Assembly: GCF_010645075.1 (NCBI RefSeq)
Contig: NZ_JAADZV010000001.1
Coordinates: 744,001 to 808,000 of the forward strand
DNA from: Flavobacterium limi
GTDB lineage: Bacteria; Bacteroidota; Bacteroidia; Flavobacteriales; Flavobacteriaceae
DNA: 64,000 nucleotides
Direction of reading: 5' to 3'
Shown here: in pieces, positions 7,936-19,679 of the stretch
How positions within the stretch are numbered: the stretch's first letter is position 1
Layout: each line of letters starts with the position of its first letter
The notes under the pieces: generated by a model
What the model saw: the letters and a program-made list of their open reading frames with translations, nothing else
Told to the model about the DNA's origin: nothing
The model's database searches: none
Program-made: the position numbers and the translations under genes

Positions 7936-8655
7936 ATGATTTATAAGATTTATCCCGCAATTTTATTTTTGTTTTTGTCGTTTGCTACAGATTCTAAAAA
8001 TAATGCTGTTTCTACAAATGTAGCAGCAAAAAGCATCGCAAAAGTTGAAAAATCAACTGTAGATGCTAAAATTGAAAATATTTATAATACATTAAACACA
8101 AACAATTTTGTGCTTCCTGAACTAAGAACTTTTTCTGAGGCTTTAAAAGGATTTTACTTATTGAAGGAAAAAGGAGCTATTCAAAAAGATATTTTAACCT
8201 TGATTGATTTTAGTTTGTCATCAAACCTAAAACGTCTATGGGTAATCGATTTGACATCTAATACCATCCTGTTCCAGTCTCTTGTTGCTCATGGCAGAAA
8301 TACTGGTGAAGAATTTGCATCTGCATTTTCGAATATAAATTCCTCATTTAAAAGCAGTCTGGGTTTTTATGCTACAGGCGAAATTTATCAGGGTAAGCAT
8401 GGAGCTTCACTTCGTTTGGATGGTCTTGAAAGAGGGATAAATGATAAAGCCCGTGAGAGAGGTGTTGTAATGCATGGTGCCGATTATGTTTCTGAATCCT
8501 TTATCAGAGCTCACAAAAGATTAGGCCGAAGCCAGGGTTGTCCTGCAGTTCCGGTTGAATTGACAGATGATATTATTCAGGCTATAAAAGGTAAATCATG
8601 CCTGTATATCTATCATCCGTCGAGAAGTTTTCCTATGGAGCAGCTAATTTCGTAA
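7936..8655 (+). CDS. Murein L,D-transpeptidase catalytic domain protein (YkuD_2 type)
   Basis: 239 residues with an N-terminal export signal (MIYKIYPAILFLFLSFATDS). The C-terminal half is the YkuD_2 fold. It has WVIDLTSNTILFQSLVAHGRNTG, then VVMHGADYVSE with the catalytic His, and LGRSQGCPAVP with nucleophile Cys202. Family members act in the periplasm and cut or join peptidoglycan peptides through an acyl-Cys intermediate. The residues before the domain resemble a short linker. Its 3' end overlaps the 3' end of a second, unrelated-looking L,D-transpeptidase on the opposite strand by 12 bp. A clear promoter lies at 7869-7899. Confidence 0.9.
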   Translation: MIYKIYPAILFLFLSFATDSKNNAVSTNVAAKSIAKVEKSTVDAKIENIYNTLNTNNFVLPELRTFSEALKGFYLLKEKGAIQKDILTLIDFSLSSNLKRLWVIDLTSNTILFQSLVAHGRNTGEEFASAFSNINSSFKSSLGFYATGEIYQGKHGASLRLDGLERGINDKARERGVVMHGADYVSESFIRAHKRLGRSQGCPAVPVELTDDIIQAIKGKSCLYIYHPSRSFPMEQLIS

Positions 8656-10227
8656 TTTAGAATATAAATCTTCATCCAGATCGTAGACGTCATATCTAAA
8701 TGTCAGCTTGTCTTTTTCGCTCCATGCAGTCCAGTACCATTGATATAATTTGTATTTTTTGGTAATTCGGATACTAGTAGTTTTTTTTCGGGCAATAATA
8801 GTATCTATTTTATCTTTTGACCAGTTTTTAGAATCGTCTAAAATGTGCTGGGCTAATTCCAGCGGATTTTCAACACGTACACAACCGGAACTTAAAGAAC
8901 GATTACTTCTTTCAAAATAGTTTCGGTGGTTGGTATCATGTAAATACACACTATAATTATTAGGAAACATAATTTTGATTAATCCCAAAGAATTGTAATA
9001 ACCCGGTTTTTGAATATATCTGTAACTTCGGGGTTTATTGATGTTCCAGTTTGCCGGGTCAACTTCATGTCCGGCGGTGTCATAAATTGTGATATTTTTG
9101 TTTTTTAAATAATTCCGATTCCGTTTCATAGCCGGAACAACATCTTCTTTTAAAATAGTAGGAGGGACGGTCCAGGTTGGGTTGAAAACAATGCTTTTAA
9201 GTGTTGATGTCAAAACTGGTGTTCTTCTTTTACTGGTTCCGACAACCACATTTCTGACAGCTGTAGTGTCATTGTTTTCTACAACATGCAATTTGAAATC
9301 AGGAATATTTACGATAAAATAATTTTCTGAAAAATCGTTTGGATACCATCTCCAGCGTTCTAAATTCGCAATGATCTGATGTCTTCTTTTTTCTTTAGAA
9401 AAATTCAAAGCATGGATAGTACTTGCTCCGATAATACCGTCGGCAACTAAACCGTGACGGGATTGAAATTTTTTTACTCCTTCAAATGTTTTGCTGTCGT
9501 AAATATTAGTTAAACTATCTTTTCCTGACATGTCATTCCAATACAACAGCCTTTTTTTGATGTTTATTAATGCAATATTAGTATCGTTAGGCTTTATCAT
9601 TTCTGTTGATTCGATTAGTTTGATATTGTCAACAGGGAATTCATTGATAAGTTTTAGTGCATTTAGTAATTGTTTGTATATTGGCGCTTTTGATTGGATA
9701 TTTTCAACTAAACTGTCTAAAGTGTTATGATTGAAGCTTTTTACCAAAGCAGTATTGATGTCCAGATCCTTGTCTTCAAGAGCCCAATCGCGATATATAT
9801 ATTTAGGATTTAATTTTCCTTCATATAAATGGGTGACAAATTTTTCAAAATTATGGGTAAGCAGCAAATCATATTCAGCAAGCTGTTTGTTGTTTAGTTT
9901 GTTGATTTGTTTTTCATAAACATCCATTTTTTTTACCCGATAATCATTTGGGTTAAGTCCTAATTCATCAGATTTTTTTAATTGAGATAAAATGTAACTT
10001 CTCTTTTTAAGATTTCCCCAAATGGTTTTGTTATCAGATGAAAGATAAAATTGTTTTAATGTTTCACTCTTATAAGCATTTATAAGTGCAGTATCTATAT
10101 CAACAGTCCGCGCATCCGTAATTACGATTGCAGGCAAAGGTTTTTTTATTTTAGGTTGTGTGTCTTTTTGGTCTTTTTTACAGCTTATAAAAACACAAAA
10201 CAGGAACAGAAAGTAAAGTTTATTCAT
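8644..10227 (-). CDS. L,D-transpeptidase, YcbB/LdtD-like lipoprotein
   Basis: 527 residues. The N-terminus MNKLYFLFLFCVFISCKKDQ is a lipoprotein signal with a lipobox cysteine, so the protein is membrane-anchored. Layout: a helical scaffold domain; a peptidoglycan-binding helix bundle (VKKFQSRHGLVADGIIGAST, about 255-275); then the YkuD catalytic domain with NFIVNIPDFKLHVVEN-like strands, the YSVYLHDTNHR segment and SLSSGCVRVENPLELA with Cys449. This matches the YcbB group, which forms 3-3 crosslinks in peptidoglycan. The gene is followed 2 bp upstream by the GNAT gene on the same strand, so the two are probably co-transcribed. Confidence 0.92.
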   Translation of the reverse strand: MNKLYFLFLFCVFISCKKDQKDTQPKIKKPLPAIVITDARTVDIDTALINAYKSETLKQFYLSSDNKTIWGNLKKRSYILSQLKKSDELGLNPNDYRVKKMDVYEKQINKLNNKQLAEYDLLLTHNFEKFVTHLYEGKLNPKYIYRDWALEDKDLDINTALVKSFNHNTLDSLVENIQSKAPIYKQLLNALKLINEFPVDNIKLIESTEMIKPNDTNIALINIKKRLLYWNDMSGKDSLTNIYDSKTFEGVKKFQSRHGLVADGIIGASTIHALNFSKEKRRHQIIANLERWRWYPNDFSENYFIVNIPDFKLHVVENNDTTAVRNVVVGTSKRRTPVLTSTLKSIVFNPTWTVPPTILKEDVVPAMKRNRNYLKNKNITIYDTAGHEVDPANWNINKPRSYRYIQKPGYYNSLGLIKIMFPNNYSVYLHDTNHRNYFERSNRSLSSGCVRVENPLELAQHILDDSKNWSKDKIDTIIARKKTTSIRITKKYKLYQWYWTAWSEKDKLTFRYDVYDLDEDLYSKLRN

Positions 10228-11085: not shown

Positions 11086-11793
11086 CTATTTTAAATTACC
11101 CAAATCACTTTCAGGTGCCAATTCTGTCGGAAGTTGGTTCTTTAAAAATAATCGGGCAGACAAATTCCCTTTTAAAGTAATTTTTTCCCCTTTTACTTCA
11201 AGCCAGCTGCCTTCTCTTAAGCCTAATACCGGAATTGTATTAAATGCATGGAATTCTTTGATACGTTCTTCCCGTGTTTCTCCCATGTGGGTAGATTTCT
11301 CTTCAGGATCTAAATAATGCGGATTCAGGTTAAAAGAAATCAATCCTAAGGTCTGAAAGCTTGGCGGATAAACAATAGGCATGTCATTTGTGGTCTGCAT
11401 CGAAAGGCCGCAAATATTACTTCCGGCACTAGTTCCTAAATATGGAGTTCCGTTTTTGACAGTTTCAGAAAGAAGCTGCATCATATTGTTTTTGTATAAT
11501 TGAGAAACCAGTAAAAAAGTATTTCCTCCGCCGGTAAATATTCCTTCGGCATTTTTTATAGCTGTTTCCGGATTTTCAAATTCATGAATTCCTTTTACAG
11601 AAATATTGATTTTCGCAAAAGCTTCTGAGGCTTTTGCAGTGTATTCATCATGAGAAATTCCGCCAGGACGTGCATATGGGATAAATAAAAGGTTTTTACA
11701 GTCTTTAAAATGTAATTTCAAGGAAGGTAACAAATATTCTAAATAGCTGCTGCCATGCAAGGTAGATGTACTGGCAATAATAACTTTTTTCAT
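11086..11793 (-). CDS. pepE: Dipeptidase E (peptidase family S51)
   Basis: 235 residues, cytosolic. Family S51 enzymes split dipeptides with N-terminal aspartate. The nucleophile elbow LGTSAGSNICG carries Ser122, preceded by GIFTGGGNTFLL, which forms part of the active-site wall. NLNPHYLDPEE with a conserved His follows. Length and motif order match PepE of enterobacteria. ATG start. It is transcribed towards the tRNA-Gly pair and shares their terminator hairpin. Confidence 0.92.
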   Translation of the reverse strand: MKKVIIASTSTLHGSSYLEYLLPSLKLHFKDCKNLLFIPYARPGGISHDEYTAKASEAFAKINISVKGIHEFENPETAIKNAEGIFTGGGNTFLLVSQLYKNNMMQLLSETVKNGTPYLGTSAGSNICGLSMQTTNDMPIVYPPSFQTLGLISFNLNPHYLDPEEKSTHMGETREERIKEFHAFNTIPVLGLREGSWLEVKGEKITLKGNLSARLFLKNQLPTELAPESDLGNLK

Positions 11794-11899
11794 AAAATTC
11801 TAAATGGTTTTCAGGTTTAAAGGTATTAAAAAAGGGAATTTTGGCTGTTAAAAAGCGGATTTTAATTAACATATTTTTATCAAGCTGTTAATAGTAAAT

Positions 11900-12718
11900 T
11901 TGGAGCACATTAGGATATTTTTACATTTTAAGAGTAATTCTAATTTTTTTATTTTGATTTCGAAGATTATTTGTTTTTCAGTATTGCTTTTGTTTCAGAC
12001 TGGCTGGTCTCAGGATGAGCAGCGTACAATGCTAAAAGGAAAAATCGTTTCAAATACAATTGATCTGGAAGGGGTTTATGTAATTAATGCGCAAACCGAA
12101 GTAATGGCAACTACTGCTGCTGATGGCTCTTTCTCTATAATGGCGAAAATCGGAGACACACTTGTTTTTTCATCAATTCAATTCAAGGAAAACAGAATTG
12201 TTTTAACAAAAGAAAATTTCTCAGACCTTAATTTTTCAGTAAAATTAAGCCTTCTCACGCATCAATTGCAGGAAGTAATCATTAAACGTTACGATAATAT
12301 TAATGCAGTGGCTTTGGGGATTATTCCGTCAGGTCAAAAAACTTATACAGAGGCAGAAAGAAAATTACATACTGCCACAGCTTTAAATCCAACTGCAAAT
12401 GCCGGAACAATGGCCGGAGGTTCTGTTTCTGCTGATCCGTTGTTGAATTTCTTTTCAGGTCGTACAGCAATGCTGAAGAAAGAAGTTGCTGTAGAGAAAA
12501 AAGAGTTTTTTATGAAGCTTTTAGAAAAGATGTTCCCGGTGGATCATTTTGTAGACAGGTTAAAAATTCCTCTTGAATATGTAAAAGGTTTTGAGTATTA
12601 TGCTGTAGAAAATGAAAGTTTTACTAAAATTCTGAATTCAAAAAATAAAACCTCTACAGAGTTTTTACTGGGGGAGCTAGCAGTTAAATATAAAGAGATA
12701 ATTGCCAGTGAAAAATAA
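11900..12718 (+). CDS. Secreted CarboxypepD_reg-like protein, tandem family member 1
   Basis: Up to 272 residues. Signal peptide ending near GWSQ, then a 7-strand carboxypeptidase-regulatory-like domain (LKGKIVSNTIDLEGVYVINA, AADGSFSIMAKIGDTLVFSS) ending at LQEVIIKRY. This is the domain found at the N-terminus of SusC-type receptors, but no plug or barrel follows. Instead come ALGIIPSGQKTYTEAERK, a DPLLNFFSGRTAMLKKE segment and a C-terminal helical region with KIPLEYVKGFEYY. Paralogous to the next two genes. The longest start (TTG, 11900) overlaps TAAATTTG (11895-11902), a good -7 box, so the TTG at 11954 may be the true start. Function unknown. Confidence 0.85.
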   Translation: MEHIRIFLHFKSNSNFFILISKIICFSVLLLFQTGWSQDEQRTMLKGKIVSNTIDLEGVYVINAQTEVMATTAADGSFSIMAKIGDTLVFSSIQFKENRIVLTKENFSDLNFSVKLSLLTHQLQEVIIKRYDNINAVALGIIPSGQKTYTEAERKLHTATALNPTANAGTMAGGSVSADPLLNFFSGRTAMLKKEVAVEKKEFFMKLLEKMFPVDHFVDRLKIPLEYVKGFEYYAVENESFTKILNSKNKTSTEFLLGELAVKYKEIIASEK

Positions 12719-13475
12719 CATTACACTCTTTATTTTAATTTTTTCTGTTTCGCAGGTTTCTCTGGGACAGGCCGTTATTTCAAAAGAAATTAAGGGACAG
12801 ATTTTTGAAGAATCCTCTTTTGTAGAAGGTGTAAATATTATTAATAATACTACTCAGGTTACAACTGTATCAGATGCAAATGGAGCGTTTTCTGTTGTGG
12901 TAAAAGAAGGAGATGTTTTGGTTTTTTCGTCCGTAAATTTAGAACCTGTAAGATATCGGGTTGTGGCTGAAGATTTGGTTTCAGATTTACTTCGGATAAA
13001 AATGGCAACAAAAAAAAATGAACTCAAAGAAGTAGTCATAAATGAAAACGCCAATATTACAGCCGAAAATCTCGGAATTATTCCAAAAGATCAAAAAAAA
13101 TATACTCCGGCAGAACGAAAATTAGCAACTGCCGGAGATTTTAAACCTGTACATCTTTTAGGTTTATTGGGCGGGTCTGTAGAAATTGATCCTGTTATTA
13201 ATAAAATAAACGGTCGTACTAAAAAGTTAAAGATAAATCTGGAAATTGAAAAAAAAGAATATTATATTGAAGAATTAGGTTATTTGTTTGAGGAGGAATA
13301 TTATATTGACTATTTAAAAATTCCTTCAGAACATATTCGTGGATTTAAGTTTTATTTGGTCGAGAACCAACAGGTGAAAATGCTTTTAAAGGAAAAAGAC
13401 AAGGCTAAATTAACTCTTTTAATGAGTGAATTAGCATTAAAATACAATGAAATAATTGCAAGTGAAAATAAATAA
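12708..13475 (+). CDS. Secreted CarboxypepD_reg-like protein, tandem family member 2
   Basis: 255 residues from a GTG at 12708, which lies inside the last codons of the previous gene (11-bp overlap). A TTG 6 bp upstream is the alternative. Signal peptide to SLGQ; regulatory-like beta domain with KGQIFEESSFVEGVNIIN, DANGAFSVVVKEGDVLVFSS and ELKEVVINEN. Next is the family-specific stretch AENLGIIPKDQKKYTPAERK, then DPVINKINGRTKKLK and KIPSEHIRGFKFYLVEN. It closely resembles member 3 and less so member 1. The overlap implies coupled translation. Function unknown; a periplasmic or surface partner protein is the likely setting. Confidence 0.85.
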   Translation: MKNNITLFILIFSVSQVSLGQAVISKEIKGQIFEESSFVEGVNIINNTTQVTTVSDANGAFSVVVKEGDVLVFSSVNLEPVRYRVVAEDLVSDLLRIKMATKKNELKEVVINENANITAENLGIIPKDQKKYTPAERKLATAGDFKPVHLLGLLGGSVEIDPVINKINGRTKKLKINLEIEKKEYYIEELGYLFEEEYYIDYLKIPSEHIRGFKFYLVENQQVKMLLKEKDKAKLTLLMSELALKYNEIIASENK

Positions 13476-14187
13476 TATTCTATATGTCATCTCATTATTT
13501 ATCCTTCAGATTTCTTTTGGACAAACCTACGGTGCCAAAGAAATTCAGGGACAAATTTTTGAGCAGTCTACTGTGGTAGATGGCGTGAATATTATTAACA
13601 ATAATACGCAGGTTACGGCTGTTTCAGATATAAACGGAATGTTTTCTATTCTGGTAAAAGAAGGGGATGTTTTGGTTTTTTCTTCGGTAAATCTTGAGCC
13701 TTTAAAACGTCGGATTAGTGCTGAAGATCTGGCTTCAAATTCAATTACAATAAAAATGGCAGCAAAAGAAATCGAGCTAAAAGAAGTAATTGTAAATGAG
13801 AATGCCCATATCACAGCAGAAAACCTCGGCATTATTCCGCATGGACAAAAAAAATATACGCCGGCTGAACGAAAAGTTTATACCGCAACATCAACTTCTG
13901 TAGACAAAGTATTAAATGCCATTTCCGGAAGAACTGCAATGTTGAAAAAAGAAGCTAAAATTGAGAAAAAAGAAATCCTTTTTAGAAAGATGGAATATCT
14001 TTTTGAAGAAAACTATTATACAGATCGTCTTAAAATTCCGTCAGAACATATCAAAGGATTTCAGCTTTATTGCGTGGATAGTCCCGAATTTGCTGTATCT
14101 TTGAGTACTAAGAATAAAACGATGAGTATGTTTTTAATAACAGGTTTGGCTCAGGAATATCTAAAAATCATAGAACATGAAAAGTAA
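13462..14187 (+). CDS. Secreted CarboxypepD_reg-like protein, tandem family member 3
   Basis: 241 residues from a GTG at 13462 (14-bp overlap with member 2; a TTG 6 bp upstream is possible). Signal peptide to SFGQ. The beta domain is very like member 2 (GQIFEQSTVVDGVNIINN, DVLVFSSVNLEPLKRR, ELKEVIVNENAHI), followed by AENLGIIPHGQKKYTPAERK, a shortened linker, VLNAISGRTAMLKKEAK and KIPSEHIKGFQLY. The near-identity of the N-terminal halves of members 2 and 3 points to a recent duplication. The gene overlaps the next by 11 bp. Function unknown. Confidence 0.85.
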   Translation: MKINNILYVISLFILQISFGQTYGAKEIQGQIFEQSTVVDGVNIINNNTQVTAVSDINGMFSILVKEGDVLVFSSVNLEPLKRRISAEDLASNSITIKMAAKEIELKEVIVNENAHITAENLGIIPHGQKKYTPAERKVYTATSTSVDKVLNAISGRTAMLKKEAKIEKKEILFRKMEYLFEENYYTDRLKIPSEHIKGFQLYCVDSPEFAVSLSTKNKTMSMFLITGLAQEYLKIIEHEK

Positions 14188-14932
14188 ATTAGGAGTATTT
14201 GTAGTATGTTTATTTTGTCAATTTATAATAGGACAGACTAATTCGAGAAAACCTTTACACGGAAGAGCGGTTAATAGTTCTCTTCCTATAGAAACGGGTA
14301 ATGTTATGAATATAAATGCTAATACCAGAACTTTTATAGGGCCAAACGGATTGTTTGATATCGTGGCAAGACCTAAAGATACCCTACTTTTCACAGGTAT
14401 GGCGTTTCAGTCCAAAAAAGTTGTACTAACAGAAAAAGACTGTGCAGAAGTGCTTTTTTCAGTGTCTTTGGATTTAGTAAATGTTGAATTAAAAGAGGTT
14501 TTGGTTCATAAAGAATTAAAAGTAAAATCATTACAGGGAGGCTCTCAAAGTATTGTTGATACACAGTTTGAAGATGATAAACTGTCTTCTCCAAAAAATA
14601 AGGTAATGTATTCAGATCAGACAATTAAATACGGAACCGATTTTGTCCGAATTTTTAAAGATGTGAAAAAGCTGCTTCGTAAAGACAAAGAAGTTGAAGA
14701 AGAAGTCATAAGTGATATTGCTTTCGTTGCCTATGCTAAAGACAATTTTACACCTGACTTTTACACTAAAACACTGGGGCTAAAAGAAGATGAAATTGAT
14801 TTGTTTTTAATGTATTGCTCTAATGATGCTGAATCCAAAAGGCATTTAAAAGCGGATCAAAAGTTTGAATTGATAGATTTTATGATTAATAAAAATAAAG
14901 ATTTTAAGAATGCTGAGGTAAGCCAAAAATGA
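14177..14932 (+). CDS. Secreted CarboxypepD_reg-like protein, divergent tandem member 4
   Basis: 251 residues with an ATG start inside the end of member 3. Signal peptide to IIGQ; beta domain LHGRAVNSSLPIETGNVMNI ... DTLLFTGMAFQSKKVVL ... VELKEVLVHKEL. It lacks the LGIIP..QKKYTPAERK block of its neighbours and instead has a polar stretch and YGTDFVRIFKDVKKLLRKD. The C-terminal helical part (KTLGLKEDEIDLFLMYCSND) aligns in position with the KIPxEYxKGF segment of members 1-3. It overlaps the DUF6702 gene by ATGA. Probably the oldest paralogue or a partner with a changed binding surface. Function unknown. Confidence 0.82.
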   Translation: MKSKLGVFVVCLFCQFIIGQTNSRKPLHGRAVNSSLPIETGNVMNINANTRTFIGPNGLFDIVARPKDTLLFTGMAFQSKKVVLTEKDCAEVLFSVSLDLVNVELKEVLVHKELKVKSLQGGSQSIVDTQFEDDKLSSPKNKVMYSDQTIKYGTDFVRIFKDVKKLLRKDKEVEEEVISDIAFVAYAKDNFTPDFYTKTLGLKEDEIDLFLMYCSNDAESKRHLKADQKFELIDFMINKNKDFKNAEVSQK

Positions 14933-15435
14933 AAAAGAATATAATGTATTCCCTTGTTGGAATATTGTTTTTATCACTGTCGTCTTTTGCATTTCATAAA
15001 TTCTACATGGGGATTTTTCAGGTGAATTATGCGGTTGAAAAAAAAATGATTCAGATAACTTCAAGAATCTTTGTGGATGACCTGAATAATGCAATCGAAA
15101 AAAAATATCATAAAAAAACCTTTATCGGAACTGAAAAAGAAACCCAGACCGATCTGGATTTGTTAAAAAGATACCTTGCAGAAAATTTCAGCATTAAAAT
15201 AAACGGTCAGCCCAAAACCATTGTCTTTTTATCCAAAGAACTCGAAGCAGATGATGTTTTGGTTTGTTATTCCAGAATTACTGCCGTAGAAAAATTTAAA
15301 ACATTAGAAATTACAAACACAATTTTGACAAGCTGGAATTCTGAACAGCAAAACATTACACATATTTCAGCCTATGGTACTAAAAGAAGTGTTCTTTTTA
15401 CAGAATCTTCAAGGAAAGAAGTGTTAAAGTATTAA
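14929..15435 (+). CDS. DUF6702 family secreted protein
   Basis: 168 residues; signal segment YSLVGILFLSLSSFAFHK, then the DUF6702 pattern HKFYMGIFQVNYAVEKKMIQ, ITSRIFVDDLNNAIEKKY and a C-terminal beta-rich half. In Bacteroidota these proteins are commonly found beside an M1 metallopeptidase and CarboxypepD_reg-like proteins, as here. The ATG overlaps the preceding stop by 4 bp (ATGA), so translation is coupled. No enzymatic motif is visible; role unknown. Confidence 0.82.
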   Translation: MKKNIMYSLVGILFLSLSSFAFHKFYMGIFQVNYAVEKKMIQITSRIFVDDLNNAIEKKYHKKTFIGTEKETQTDLDLLKRYLAENFSIKINGQPKTIVFLSKELEADDVLVCYSRITAVEKFKTLEITNTILTSWNSEQQNITHISAYGTKRSVLFTESSRKEVLKY

Positions 15436-15442
15436 TGAACAG

Positions 15443-15574
15443 GTGAAGGTTGTTGTTTTAATTGCTATTTTCACCGCATCAAAAAATTCCAAAAATATTT
15501 ATGAAATGAGCATCATTCAGGAATTGGTTGCAGTTACCAATTATGATATGCGAATTACATATACCAAAAAATAA
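15443..15574 (+). CDS. Possible 43-residue ORF or gene remnant
   Basis: A GTG-started frame fills the gap between the DUF6702 gene and the M1 peptidase gene. It begins VKVVVLIAIFTASKNSKNI and ends in YTKK 12 bp before the peptidase ATG. It reads like the C-terminal end of a secreted beta protein more than a complete gene, because it has no signal peptide or clear leader. It may be a real small gene, or the tail of a lost gene. Low certainty. Confidence 0.3.
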   Translation: MKVVVLIAIFTASKNSKNIYEMSIIQELVAVTNYDMRITYTKK

Positions 15575-15586
15575 TAAATTCTGCAT

Positions 15587-17830
15587 ATGAAAAGACTTTC
15601 ATTACTATTGCTTTTTCCTGTTATGTTATTTGCTCAGGAAAAAAATACGGATACTGCTCCAAAGCAACAAGGAAAGTATGATACGAACAAATTTAGCCAG
15701 ATGTACGATTTAATGGCTACGCCAAATATGTTTCGTACAGCATCAGGTGCGCCAGGCCCTGCCTATTACCAACAACAGGCAGACTACAAGATTGATATTG
15801 AATTAGACGATAAAAACTCAAAATTAAACGGTTCTGAAACAATTACGTATTCCAATAATTCGCCTGACAGTTTAGAATATCTATGGATTCAGCTGGATCA
15901 GAATCAGGCTAAAGCCAATACTCAGTCAACTTTGGCAGAAGGTGAAAAAATTAATCAGGTATTTCCATTAGGGAGCTTTTCAGATAAATATCTGAAGAAA
16001 AACCTTGAACGTGGTTTTAATATCGAATATGTAAAAGATTCGAAAGGAAATCCGATGTCCTATACAATCAATGAAACCATGATGCGTATCAATCTGGATA
16101 AACCTTTAAAACCCGGAGAAAAAATTTCACTGGCTATAAAATGGTGGTACAATATCAATAATTATCAAAAAGAAGGCGGGCGTTCGGGTTATGAATTGTT
16201 TGAGAAAGATGGCAACAAATTGTATGTAATTGCTCAGTTTTACCCTCGAATGGCGGTTTATAATGATGTTGAGGGCTGGCAGAACATGCAGTTCTGGGGA
16301 AGCGGAGAATTCGCATTACCATTTGGAAATTTTGATGTAAATATTACAGTTCCTGCTGATCACGTTATAAATGCCACTGGGGAACTAATAAACAGAAGCG
16401 AAGTTTTTACGCCTGAACAGGTAAAACGTTACCAACAGGCTCAGAAATCTTTTGACAAACCGGTTGTAATTGTAACACAGACTGAAGCTGAAGCAGCTGA
16501 AAAAGGTTTTTCTGAAAAGAAAAAAACATGGAAATTCAGTGCAAAAAATGTGCGCGATTTCGGAATCGCTTCTTCAAGAAAATTTATTTACGACGCTATG
16601 GCTGTAAAAATTGGAAGCCGAACCGTAATGGCCGAATCGGTTTATCCAAAAGAAGCAAATCCGCTTTGGGGAGAAACTTCAACGTTAACTGTGGCACATA
16701 CTTTAAAAAGTTATTCTTCACACACATTTGACTACCCTTATCCTAAAGCAGTTTCAGTTTCAGCTGAAGATCAGGGAATGGAATATCCAATGATTTGCTG
16801 GAACTACGGGCGTCCTGATGAAAATGGCGTAACCAGCAGGGAAGTTAAAAACGGAATGATAGGTGTAATAATTCACGAAGTTGGACACACTTTCTTCCCG
16901 ATGATTGTAAACTCAGATGAGCGTCAATGGACCTGGATGGATGAAGGTTTAAACTCATTTTTAGAATATCTGGCAGAACAGGAACTGGATCCAAAATTTC
17001 CTTCAAGACGCGGGCCTGCCAAAAATATTGTTCCGTATATGAGTGGAGACCAGAAGTTTTTGGAGCCCATTATGTCTAATTCTGAAACCATCCATCAATT
17101 TGGAAATAATGCCTACGGAAAACCGGCTACAGGGCTCAATATTCTGAGAGAAGTCGTAATGGGCAGAGAATTGTTTGATTATGCTTTTAAAACCTATGCC
17201 AACAGATGGAAGTTCAAACATCCAACTCCGGAAGATTTTTTCAGAACGATGGAAGATGCTTCTGCAGTTGATTTAGACTGGTTTTGGAGAGGATGGTTTT
17301 ATTCAACTGATTTTGTAGATATCGGAATCAAAGAGGTAAAGCAATATTATGTTTCTGAAACTCCAACAACAGATATCAAAAATGTCAAAGTGAGAAAAGG
17401 ACGCTTCGGTTACGAAAAAGGGCCATTTGTTTATTTGGTAGCAGGTGATAATACAGAAGTAAGTGCTTCGAATAAAAAGCCCCTGAAAGTTGAAGATTTT
17501 AAAACACTCTCAGATTATATAAACGAAACTTTCAGTGCCGAGGAAAAAGCAAGTATAAAATCACCTAAATATTTTTATGAAGTTGAATTTAATAAACCTG
17601 GCGGAATGATTATGCCAATTTTGGTTGAAATTACTTATGAAGACGGTACAAAAGATAATTATAAGTACCCGGCACAAATCTGGCGAAAAAATAATACAAC
17701 GGCTAAGAAGGTTTATGCAACTGAAAAAGCAATTAAAAGTATTCATATAGATCCGAAATTATTGACAGCTGATATTGACGTAGCCAACAATTCGTGGCCA
17801 AAAGCAGAACAAAAGTCAAAATTTGATTAA
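15587..17830 (+). CDS. M1 family zinc metallopeptidase, secreted
   Basis: 747 residues with a signal peptide ending at LFAQ. The N-terminal beta domain (about 50-290) resembles aminopeptidase N. The exopeptidase loop is GMEYP (in EDQGMEYPMICW) in place of GAMEN. The gluzincin site is H430-E431-V-G-H434 with the third zinc ligand E453 (WMDEGLNSF), the exact HExxHx18E spacing. A C-terminal beta region follows. It probably trims peptides in the periplasm or at the surface; specificity is unknown. It closes the run of secreted paralogues and DUF6702 and is followed by a terminator. Confidence 0.93.
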   Translation: MKRLSLLLLFPVMLFAQEKNTDTAPKQQGKYDTNKFSQMYDLMATPNMFRTASGAPGPAYYQQQADYKIDIELDDKNSKLNGSETITYSNNSPDSLEYLWIQLDQNQAKANTQSTLAEGEKINQVFPLGSFSDKYLKKNLERGFNIEYVKDSKGNPMSYTINETMMRINLDKPLKPGEKISLAIKWWYNINNYQKEGGRSGYELFEKDGNKLYVIAQFYPRMAVYNDVEGWQNMQFWGSGEFALPFGNFDVNITVPADHVINATGELINRSEVFTPEQVKRYQQAQKSFDKPVVIVTQTEAEAAEKGFSEKKKTWKFSAKNVRDFGIASSRKFIYDAMAVKIGSRTVMAESVYPKEANPLWGETSTLTVAHTLKSYSSHTFDYPYPKAVSVSAEDQGMEYPMICWNYGRPDENGVTSREVKNGMIGVIIHEVGHTFFPMIVNSDERQWTWMDEGLNSFLEYLAEQELDPKFPSRRGPAKNIVPYMSGDQKFLEPIMSNSETIHQFGNNAYGKPATGLNILREVVMGRELFDYAFKTYANRWKFKHPTPEDFFRTMEDASAVDLDWFWRGWFYSTDFVDIGIKEVKQYYVSETPTTDIKNVKVRKGRFGYEKGPFVYLVAGDNTEVSASNKKPLKVEDFKTLSDYINETFSAEEKASIKSPKYFYEVEFNKPGGMIMPILVEITYEDGTKDNYKYPAQIWRKNNTTAKKVYATEKAIKSIHIDPKLLTADIDVANNSWPKAEQKSKFD

Positions 17831-17933: not shown

Positions 17934-18281
17934 ATGTTTGGTATAGGAGGAGGAGAATTAGTTTTTATAATGTTTATAGTGCTAATGCTTTTTGGTTCAG
18001 ATAAAGTGCCTGAAATTGCCCGAACGATGGGTAAAGCGATGGCACAGTTAAAAAATGCAACAAACGATATTAAAAACGAAATTCAAAAAGGGGCAGAGGA
18101 AAATGGTTTTGACACAAAATCCCTGACTGACATAACCGGTAATATCAATGCTCAGATCAATGATGCAAAAACCAATCTGCTTGGTGATTCCGGAAACTTT
18201 TTGGGAGATACAGCAACAGAAATTAATAAAGTAAAAGAAGATATCGACTCCATTTCAGGACCTATAAAACGTCAAAGATAA
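17934..18281 (+). CDS. tatA: Sec-independent protein translocase subunit TatA/TatE
   Basis: 115 residues. The TatA/Hcf106 pattern is clear: a short N-terminus, membrane helix (GGGELVFIMFIVLMLFG), hinge FGSDKVPEIART, then amphipathic helix MGKAMAQLKNATNDIKNEI and a polar tail. TatA multimers form the channel through which folded twin-arginine proteins cross the inner membrane. The absence of an FGxxxLPE-type proline shift and a GSDKVPE hinge are normal for Bacteroidota. The next gene (PAP2) starts 1 bp after the stop, so they are co-transcribed. tatC is not in the window. Confidence 0.92.
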   Translation: MFGIGGGELVFIMFIVLMLFGSDKVPEIARTMGKAMAQLKNATNDIKNEIQKGAEENGFDTKSLTDITGNINAQINDAKTNLLGDSGNFLGDTATEINKVKEDIDSISGPIKRQR

Positions 18282-18282
18282 T

Positions 18283-18846
18283 ATGCTCGAAAAAATACAG
18301 GAATTAGATACCAGTTTGCTTGTGTATCTTAATAGTTTAGGTTCTGAAACATACGATCCGCTTTGGCTGATTATTACCAAACAACTTTACTGGACTCCTG
18401 TTTTTTTATTAATGTTTTATCTTATATACAGAAAAATAGGGGGAAAACAAACCTTGTATTTACTGCTTTTTATAGCTGTACTAGTTGCTTTTACAGATCA
18501 GGCTACTAATTTATTTAAAACTACTTTTCAACGCTTACGACCTTGTAATAATCCTGAAATCAATACAATTATCAGGGTAGTACAATCCCGAAAATCATAC
18601 AGTTTTTTCTCAGGTCATGCCGCTAATACTATGGCTGTAGCTACCTTTTTATTTTTCGTTTTAAAACACCATTTTAAATATTTAGGATTCTTGTTTTTAT
18701 GGCCTTTAATCTTCGCCTATAGCCGTATTTACTTAGGATTGCATTACCCTGGAGATATACTTACAGGTTATTTTTTTGGAGCGCTTTTCGGATTTTTGAT
18801 GTTCAAAATCTATCAAAATTTAAAGGCAAAATATTTTCCGGGATAA
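18283..18846 (+). CDS. PAP2-superfamily membrane phosphatase
   Basis: 187 residues with four to five membrane segments. The three PAP2 phosphatase motifs are present: KTTFQRLRPC (C1), SFFSGHAANTMA (C2) and SRIYLGLHYPGDILTGY (C3, with the catalytic His). Members remove phosphate from lipid substrates such as undecaprenyl pyrophosphate, phosphatidylglycerophosphate or lipid A. The exact substrate is not determined here. It follows tatA by 1 bp. A hairpin-bearing dispersed element lies just after it. Confidence 0.9.
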   Translation: MLEKIQELDTSLLVYLNSLGSETYDPLWLIITKQLYWTPVFLLMFYLIYRKIGGKQTLYLLLFIAVLVAFTDQATNLFKTTFQRLRPCNNPEINTIIRVVQSRKSYSFFSGHAANTMAVATFLFFVLKHHFKYLGFLFLWPLIFAYSRIYLGLHYPGDILTGYFFGALFGFLMFKIYQNLKAKYFPG

Positions 18847-18958: not shown

Positions 18959-19679
18959 TTAGTCCAAAAGAACTGTTTTCTCACTCCACTCTAATTCGTT
19001 CGGAAGTTCGTGTTTGCTAAATTCAATATGAATAACTCTTCGTCTTTCGTTATTTGTAGTTTTGTTTGAAGCATGAAACAATAAAGGTTTCATAATCATG
19101 ATACCACCTTTTTCAACTTCACAAATCGTTTCTTCTTTTTTTTCGAAATCCAGATTTTCAATCCTTAAAACTCCTTTTGAGTGTGAATTATTGATCACTT
19201 TCAAAGCACCATTATTTCTCGTAGTTTTATCAATATGAATTCTGATAGTGAAATTGTTTTCCAGAATTTTACAGGCGGCTGAACTGCAAACTGGTTTTGT
19301 TTTACAGTCCAGTTTTCAAATTGGCAATCTCAATTTTTTTATTGACAGAAATGGTCAAATCCTGATGATATGCCACAAACCAGTTTGATTTTTCAGGTTT
19401 GTCAAAATAAATGGATTTGGTTATAAAATACCCTTCACCAAAAGTCTCTTCAATAATATGTTTTAAATTTTGGTTAAAAATAAAATCTAAACTTTCCGGG
19501 ACTTCTTTATGAAATTGTCTTATAGCAAACAAATCCTGTGATTTCCTGAAAGTTGCATTTTCAGGATTACTTTCAGTTGTATTTTCAATTATAGAAATTA
19601 ATTTTTCAATTTCACTTTCTGTGTAAACCAGATTTATAATTGTAAAACCGTTAGAATTTATTTCGTGTAAATGGCTCAT
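18959..19679 (-). pseudogene. Phytanoyl-CoA dioxygenase family gene with two frameshifts
   Basis: Reading the minus strand, the N-terminal part (from the ATG at 19679) carries the iron ligands in AYHQDLTISV, then stops at 19302. The continuation is found by shifting frame near 19318-19321 (FENWTVKQNQFAVQPPVK) and again near 19266-19269 (ILENNFTIRIHIDKTTRNNG). The third part holds the distal His and Arg in PLLFHASNKTTNNERRRVIH and ends at 18959. Each break is explained by loss of one T in a short T-run. The joined protein would be a normal ~240-residue Fe(II)/2-oxoglutarate dioxygenase. Either a young pseudogene or two sequencing errors. Confidence 0.85.

Follow-up and report, generated by a model that had tools for sequence, protein, structure and literature searches.

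Overlapping BamP-type genes in Flavobacterium limi: probable alternative plugs for BamA

What four paralogous secreted proteins, encoded head to tail in overlapping genes, do together in the cell envelope is the question raised by a locus of Flavobacterium limi. The locus lies in the window, the whole stretch of 64,000 nucleotides that was analysed and to which all coordinates refer (contig NZ_JAADZV010000001.1, forward strand 744,001-808,000, from a genome of 5.4 Mb in 27 contigs). Its four open reading frames (ORFs), here genes 1 to 4 from left to right, are followed by a DUF6702 gene and an M1 metallopeptidase gene, all of them present as a sequence-only reading had described them. That reading took the four proteins for parts of one envelope system and knew of no described mechanism. 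The first of these statements was borne out, as the system is the BAM complex, and the second was mistaken, as the mechanism of BAM and BamP is already in print (PMC12611786); a locus thought to lack a mechanism can thus be placed on a solved machine. Gene 4 is by homology BamP, genes 1 to 3 are BamP-type paralogues, and all four probably encode alternative, mutually exclusive plugs of BamA. New here are a promoter element inside gene 3, a further BamP-like family and the remnant of a second locus.

Gene 4 and the BamP family

Gene 4 passes the cut-off of 230 bits of the NCBIfam model for BamP, NF053692, and matches chain E of PDB 9n2d end to end (residues 1-249 on 1-248, E=9.2e-120). On these matches it is identified as BamP, the BAM complex subunit of Flavobacterium, and as the orthologue of Fjoh_1771 of F. 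johnsoniae (PDB 9N2D/9N2E chain E; Liu et al. 2025, PMC12611786). In the structure of the F. johnsoniae complex, BamP is tripartite, with an N-domain, a SusC-NTE-like beta domain that binds POTRA 4 and 5 of BamA, a linker that runs up into the barrel of BamA and exits at its lateral seam, and a C-domain of three helices that sits between POTRA 1 and BamD; a single BamP loop occupies both the lumen and the seam of a single BamA (PMC12611786). The same species has three more homologues, BamP2-4, whose folded domains are related and whose loops have diverged, as in genes 1 to 3; on rich medium only BamP4 among them reaches appreciable expression, and removal of all four BamP homologues yields darobactin-sensitive cells (PMC12611786).

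At E<=1, NF053692 matched 46 places in the F. limi genome. Next after the four genes came a protein encoded elsewhere (L013, 58.7 bits) and a C-domain remnant (54.1 bits), both described below, and long SusC-like frames scored at most 39 bits. The matches of L013 and of these frames are confined to the N-domain, so that the beta domain by itself scores below genes 1 to 3 (88.6-109.7 bits). At the same threshold two of 14 control genomes were matched, neither of them over the cut-off, and at E<=1e-10 no control genome was matched, whereas all 61 genomes of the genus were. The cut-off itself was passed in 27 of these 61 genomes, so that not every member of the genus has BamP proper.

Genes 1, 2 and 3 match NF053692 over nearly the whole model (Table 1), and gene 3 also matches 9n2d chain E (E=2.4e-9); going by sequence, they are filed as BamP homologues and not as BamP. 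All four genes have a signal-peptide-like start. The layout of genes 1 to 3 is a beta N-domain, a linker and a helical C-domain, as taken from an AlphaFold2 (AF2) model of gene 3 and, for genes 1 and 2, from alignment. The model (mean pLDDT 80.5, pTM 0.41) has strands at residues 26-99, a weak stretch at 106-113 (pLDDT <50) and helices at 134-240, and in a Foldseek search of the PDB it found 9n2d chain E at rank 2 (E=2.3e-6, 142 columns). The earlier description of all four as CarboxypepD_reg-like held for genes 2 and 3, which pass the CarbopepD_reg_2 cut-off of 32.2 bits (36.7 and 42.6), but gene 1 stayed under it (29.7); for gene 4 this family was not reported, and its N-domain follows from the full-length match to 9n2d chain E.

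The conserved segment LGIIP..QKxYT, present as LGIIPSGQKTYTEAERK, LGIIPKDQKKYTPAERK and LGIIPHGQKKYTPAERK in genes 1, 2 and 3, comes after the beta domain and before the helices, both in alignments with BamP and in the gene 3 model. In its longer form, LGIIP..QKxYTxAERK, the segment is a linker at the position of the stretch with which BamP threads BamA. It had been thought unique to genes 1 to 3; G[IL]P, however, recurs in 24 of the 25 other genera aligned and TxxER in 16 of these 25 upstream neighbours of DUF6702 (motifs counted by eye; L122 and L132, of 27 upstream ORFs, omitted as divergent), and the linker motif is family-wide in degenerate form. A second proposed signature, the C-terminal block KIPxEYxKGF, was found in gene 1 (KIPLEYVKGF), but genes 2 and 3 read KIPSEHIRGF and KIPSEHIKGF. 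With domain borders chosen by us, the mean column entropies of N-domain, linker and C-domain were 0.84, 0.38 and 0.36 in 81 gene 3 sequences, 0.82, 0.61 and 0.40 in 80 gene 1 sequences, and 0.52, 0.52 and 0.74 in 81 BamP sequences. Therefore, conservation in genes 1 to 3 is higher in the linker and the C-domain than in the N-domain, unlike in BamP.

Sequence profiles were built from the linker plus C-domain of genes 1 to 3 (A3), the linker plus C-domain of L013-type proteins (A5), the C-domain of BamP (A6) and, more widely, from the 25 genera together with window genes 1 and 3, with the N-domain removed (A7). Three comparisons of shallow profiles were weak (P=0.0023, 0.061 and 0.00019, the second being that of A5 with A6), and the wider A7 gave usable results. 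Compared with A6, A7 revealed a homology of the C-domains obtained without help from the N-domain (probability 96.4, E=1.4e-9). Thus, BamP and genes 1 to 3 have a common layout and homologous C-domains, and differ in the linker and in the equivalog cut-off, which the latter miss. In a phylogeny of 56 proteins, whose deepest forks are weak, with several long rows and GIP-type rows that form no one supported group, the BamP group (support 95/82) contains window gene 4, F. johnsoniae BamP, the pair from the second locus of that species and proteins of two other genera (G096 and G065), apart from the group with window genes 1 to 3 (99/100).

Three other identities were rejected: genes 1 to 3 as truncated SusC transporters, given the C-domain homology to BamP found with A7 and A6; a role in carboxypeptidase regulation, as a Pfam scan found no peptidase domain in genes 1 to 4; and parts of the T9SS, as neither the Pfam nor the NCBIfam scan matched any such family.

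By homology, genes 1 to 3 would offer BamA a different linker, GIPxYxGKxxTxxER-like, at the place of the BamP linker. Since one BamP loop fills lumen and seam, paralogues acting on the same BamA ought to be mutually exclusive, each BamA taking one plug at a time. The motif pointed out by the sequence-only reading would then mark the loop that probably enters BamA in a family-wide class of plugs.

Several observations weigh against this assignment. Genes 1 to 3 fall short of the BamP cut-off, and the comparison of the shallower A3 with A6 is the weak one at P=0.0023. The superposition of the gene 3 model on 9n2d chain E has an rmsd of 15.3, and the best PDB match of gene 3 is a lone SusC NTE domain (9hfj, E=2.2e-6, 81 columns), although gene 3 differs from that closest fold match in continuing into a linker and a helical domain, without plug or barrel. 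The GIP linker could not be aligned with the BamP linker when A3 and A7 were compared with the BamP profile, so that it is its position that suggests entry into BamA. Finally, BamP2 and BamP3 of F. johnsoniae show no appreciable expression on rich medium, and in the passages available pull-downs with BAM brought BamP and BamP4 only (PMC12611786).

A linker that is strongly conserved, yet unlike that of BamP, might also mean that genes 1 to 3 serve another BamA-like barrel, of the TamA type, and F. johnsoniae does have other BamA homologues (PMC12611786). We regard this as unlikely, because deletions of the homologues are additive for darobactin sensitivity and overexpression of BamP is suppressive (PMC12611786), which indicates the same BamA site.

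Promoter elements and gene overlaps

The consensus TAHHTTTG, used here for the -7 element of a Bacteroidota sigma-A promoter, was taken from PMC6847099, and the same -7 box is given for sigma-A of F. psychrophilum (PMC9723704). The counts that follow refer to 80 loci of Flavobacterium or close relatives, the best 80 of 197 confirmed relatives, in which the presence of genes of the 1-3 type is given by the selection. Upstream of gene 1, TAnnTTTG is found at the position of TAAATTTG in 52 of 58 aligned sequences, and a TAHHTTTG lies 700-950 nt before the gene 1 stop in 71 of the 80 loci. The start first assigned to gene 1, TTG 11900, falls within this conserved element, so TTG 11954 is the more likely start.

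A second element, TATCTTTG, lies inside gene 3. Seven genes of the window (genes 1, 3 and 4, DUF6702, M1, tatA and PAP2) were tested for TAnnTTTG on the sense strand, and this is the sole occurrence; all 81 codon-aligned sequences retain it. In 80/80 loci it lies at -81 relative to the start of bamP, whereas the next most repeated TAHHTTTG offset in the block occurs in 15/80, against a background of 0.744 per kb. The codons under the element are frozen as GTA (in all 79 sequences with Val), TCT (81/81) and TTG (81/81); from codon use, homozygosities of 0.31, 0.24 and 0.22, respectively, would be expected. The most frozen six-codon windows of gene 3 are located there as well, at codons 209-215 (0.88, compared with a mean of 0.26). 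Freezing at >=97% affects 20 of the 548 conserved four- or six-fold codons across these seven genes, and 4 of 51 in gene 3. All these counts come from related sequences and not from independent trials, and gene 3 is under general constraint towards its end.

At the -33 position (TTTG) there is only a TTG, at 14070-14072 and 23 nt upstream of the -7 element; the -33 element is generally weak in F. johnsoniae (PMC6847099). With a putative transcription start near 14108, the leader would measure about 69 nt, compared with a published mean of 33 nt (PMC6847099). Taken together, TATCTTTG is probably the -7 element of an internal bamP promoter. Among the titles and beginnings of abstracts that we found, none names such a promoter. 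Window genes 1 and 3 have their orthologues in the two genes preceding bamP in F. johnsoniae CI04, and this gene order (L066) suggests that they are BamP2 and BamP3; if so, an internal promoter would explain why BamP is made while BamP2 and BamP3 are not. A scan with a sigma-70-type model (37 promoters vs. 28.3 expected, sd 5.2; 5 terminators vs. 4.7 expected) was set aside, since this model misses the promoters of the phylum.

The overlaps of 11, 14 and 11 bp between genes 1 to 4, and of 4 bp into DUF6702, were as first described. With starts set by a rule that favours a start codon near the preceding stop, followed by Lys, gene 3 overlaps its predecessor by 14 bp in 78/80 loci and gene 4 by 11 bp in 79/80, and the overlap of gene 4 with DUF6702 measures 4 bp in 57/80 and 1 bp in 16/80. 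Gene 3 starts with GTG in 64 loci, TTG in 14 and ATG in 2, and bamP with ATG in all 80.

Overlaps such as these had suggested a fixed ratio, in which genes 1 to 4 would form one hetero-oligomer with its stoichiometry set through the overlapping genes. The nearly invariant overlap lengths agree with this, as does the fact that genes of the BamP class and of the GIP class adjoin each other in other genera (G096 and G065). However, copy number varies, with a gene-2-type ORF in 9 of the 80 loci (in one of them, L031, in two pieces); the structure has one BamP loop per BamA; and published BAM particles contain BamP, with no homologue listed as a subunit in the passages available (PMC12611786). In addition, the conserved internal element precedes bamP only and would uncouple it from genes 1 to 3. 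Such a hetero-oligomer seems very unlikely.

For alternative plugs, the same element would mean that bamP could be made apart from genes 1 to 3. Gene 1 would be transcribed from its own promoter element and bamP additionally from the one in gene 3, and two promoters that responded differently would allow the cell to change which plug gets made.

Gene order and the DUF6702 and M1 neighbours

The positions of the features are given in Table 1. The divergent gene at the left border of the block is presumably peptidase-E-like (pepE-like). The order pepE-like (minus strand), gene 1, gene 3, bamP, DUF6702 and M1 is found in 80/80 loci, gene 1 being in two pieces in one of them (L093), and the two loci without tatA and PAP2 end soon past M1. 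Outside the genus, 103 of 120 genomes of the family, one per genus, had a DUF6702 match, and gene order was checked in the 30 among them with the best scores. DUF6702 is followed by M1 in 30/30 genera, and a BamP-like ORF stands directly before DUF6702 in 27/30 (phmmer E<=2.4e-11 to a window gene). In the first of the three exceptional genera a BamP-type gene lies about 1.5 kb upstream of DUF6702, in the second a further copy of M1 comes after three BamP-like genes, and in the third no BamP-like gene was recognised within about 7 kb. Linkage in relatives, on which the sequence-only reading had made its proposal depend, is therefore conserved. The titles and beginnings of abstracts found do not name the BamP-DUF6702-M1 linkage, part of which may appear in Extended Data Fig. 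3a of PMC12611786, on bam gene loci.

Table 1. Features of the locus in window coordinates, followed by two BamP-type features encoded elsewhere in the genome
Feature	Position	Strand	Start codon and overlap with preceding gene	Evidence or remark
Divergent gene, left border of the block	11086..11793	-		same gene in 80/80 loci
TAAATTTG, -7 promoter element upstream of gene 1	11895..11902	+		
Gene 1, BamP homologue with GIP-type linker	11954..12718	+	TTG	NF053692 109.7 bits; start revised
Gene 1 linker motif LGIIPSGQKTYTEAERK	12314..12364	+		
Gene 2, BamP homologue, extra copy	12708..13475	+	GTG; 11 bp	NF053692 88.6 bits
Gene 2 linker motif LGIIPKDQKKYTPAERK	13071..13121	+		
Gene 3, BamP homologue with GIP-type linker	13462..14187	+	GTG; 14 bp	NF053692 93.3 bits
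Gene 3 linker motif LGIIPHGQKKYTPAERK	13825..13875	+		
TATCTTTG, -7 element of probable internal bamP promoter, inside gene 3	14096..14103	+		
Gene 4, bamP	14177..14932	+	ATG; 11 bp	NF053692 367.5 bits; PDB 9n2d chain E
DUF6702 protein, conserved neighbour	14929..15435	+	4 bp (14929-14932)	PF20420 126.2 bits, cut-off 24
M1 metallopeptidase, conserved neighbour	15587..17830	+		PF01433 53.2 bits, cut-off 27.7
TatA-like gene	17934..18281	+		PF02416 over cut-off; in 78/80 loci
PAP2 phosphatase gene	18283..18846	+		PF01569 over cut-off; in 78/80 loci
L013, 257-aa BamP-like protein	L013 1492-2265; own genome C22:88913-89683			
L014, remnant of BamP-type C-domain	L014 1483-1713; own genome C11, near 300.9 kb			

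Both neighbours pass the cut-offs of their Pfam families, and in the M1 gene the motif HEVGH-x18-E can be read from the sequence. The DUF6702 gene is the single one of its genome, and its relatives carry FHKFY in 80/80 loci, with the His at position 2 after cleavage by a small-residue rule, the site being judged by eye. A single-sequence AlphaFold model of DUF6702 was poor (mean pLDDT 58) and was discarded. A protein of the same Pfam family has been described as a metal sequesterase that binds Ni, Co and Cu tightly; M1 neighbours are noted there and 65% of family members are given with an N-terminal His, and BamP-like neighbours are unmentioned in the passages available (PMC12537917).

The two neighbours were at first thought to be served by the four proteins, perhaps by delivering or guarding peptides for the peptidase, a claim that nothing beyond gene order supports. 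More broadly, genes 1 to 4 and DUF6702 could pass substrates or metal to M1, and the constancy of M1 behind DUF6702, the BamP-like gene directly before it in most genera, the metal binding of the studied DUF6702 protein and its M1 neighbours in print (PMC12537917) are consistent with such a peptidase system. It is nevertheless quite improbable, as BamP-like genes are also found apart from DUF6702 and M1, in seven genomes of a second family (f5), at the second locus of Flavobacterium and at that of the L013 type, and as the His of FHKFY, with cleavage by the small-residue rule, would not be N-terminal as it is in the studied protein, which starts with His after the signal peptide. DUF6702 and M1 form a unit of conserved neighbours, and gene order alone suggests a possible tie to BAM.

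Further BamP-like genes and the reach of the family

The L013 protein has the same layout as genes 1 to 3, and its gene is preceded by one that we take to be DEAD-box-helicase-like. Compared with the L013-type profile A5, A7 gave a probability of 94.9 (E=4.4e-8, 132 columns), which relates linker and C-domain to those of the GIP type. Strong orthologues of L013 (E<=7.5e-54) were found in 19/19 family genomes listed within a 198-genome sample of the phylum, and this further family bears on the question, raised in PMC12611786, of what else shields BamA in the phylum.

At a second locus of the F. limi genome (L014) the neighbours are kept, and only a fragment of a BamP C-domain is left between them. 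We assume these neighbours to be HAD-like, TPR-like and TspO-like. F. johnsoniae CI04 has two BamP-type genes at that place, in addition to three genes at the DUF6702 locus and an L013-type gene; compared with it, the window has one more copy at the present locus, and the genome only the remnant at the second.

These findings leave room for a wider reading, which we offer tentatively as a possibility: a Flavobacteriaceae BAM with interchangeable, separately regulated plugs of the GIP-linker class, the BamP class and a hitherto unrecognised L013-type class, to which DUF6702 and M1 would be linked as a quality-control arm. Each class would give BamA a different conserved loop, and switching would rely on the internal bamP promoter and on copies being gained or lost. 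If true, plug switching would tune outer-membrane protein insertion or the exclusion of seam-binding antibiotics.

Detectable BamP homologues are said to be limited to Flavobacteriaceae (PMC12611786). A3 matched 30 of 196 genomes of the order: 27 belonged to the 30 family genomes listed, and the three others were weak matches (E 4.5e-7 to 1.7e-4). A7 matched 50 of 395 genomes of the phylum, with 39 among the 41 listed genomes of the family of the window, seven genomes of the second family in the order (f5; E 5.6e-12 to 1.1e-10), genome G437 (see below) and three marginal cases (G492, G521 and G654; E 4.8e-4 to 3.6e-3); among these 395, no genome of the same class outside the order was matched. 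With this reach of A3 and A7, no phylum-wide BamP was found. L013-type searches gave near-full-length weak matches outside the order (G459, G479, G493, G443 and G504; E 1.3e-12 to 1.2e-7), which A7 did not confirm, G459, G479 and G443 being unmatched and G493 and G504 absent from its matches.

The seven f5 genomes carry GIP-type genes (L220-L226), and neither DUF6702 nor M1 was matched in the stretches of 9.5 to 13 kb around them. A GIP-type gene was also seen outside the class, in genome G437 of family f29 (L227 6386-7285, A7 E=2.2e-30, on a 32 kb contig), the result of either transfer or contamination.

Two further features of the window lie outside the block. At 7936-10227, two tail-to-tail genes, presumably for L,D-transpeptidases, overlap at their 3' ends by 12 bp. 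At 18959-19679, on the minus strand, adjoining ORFs of 81 and 125 aa may be one broken gene, which we take to be phytanoyl-CoA-dioxygenase-like.

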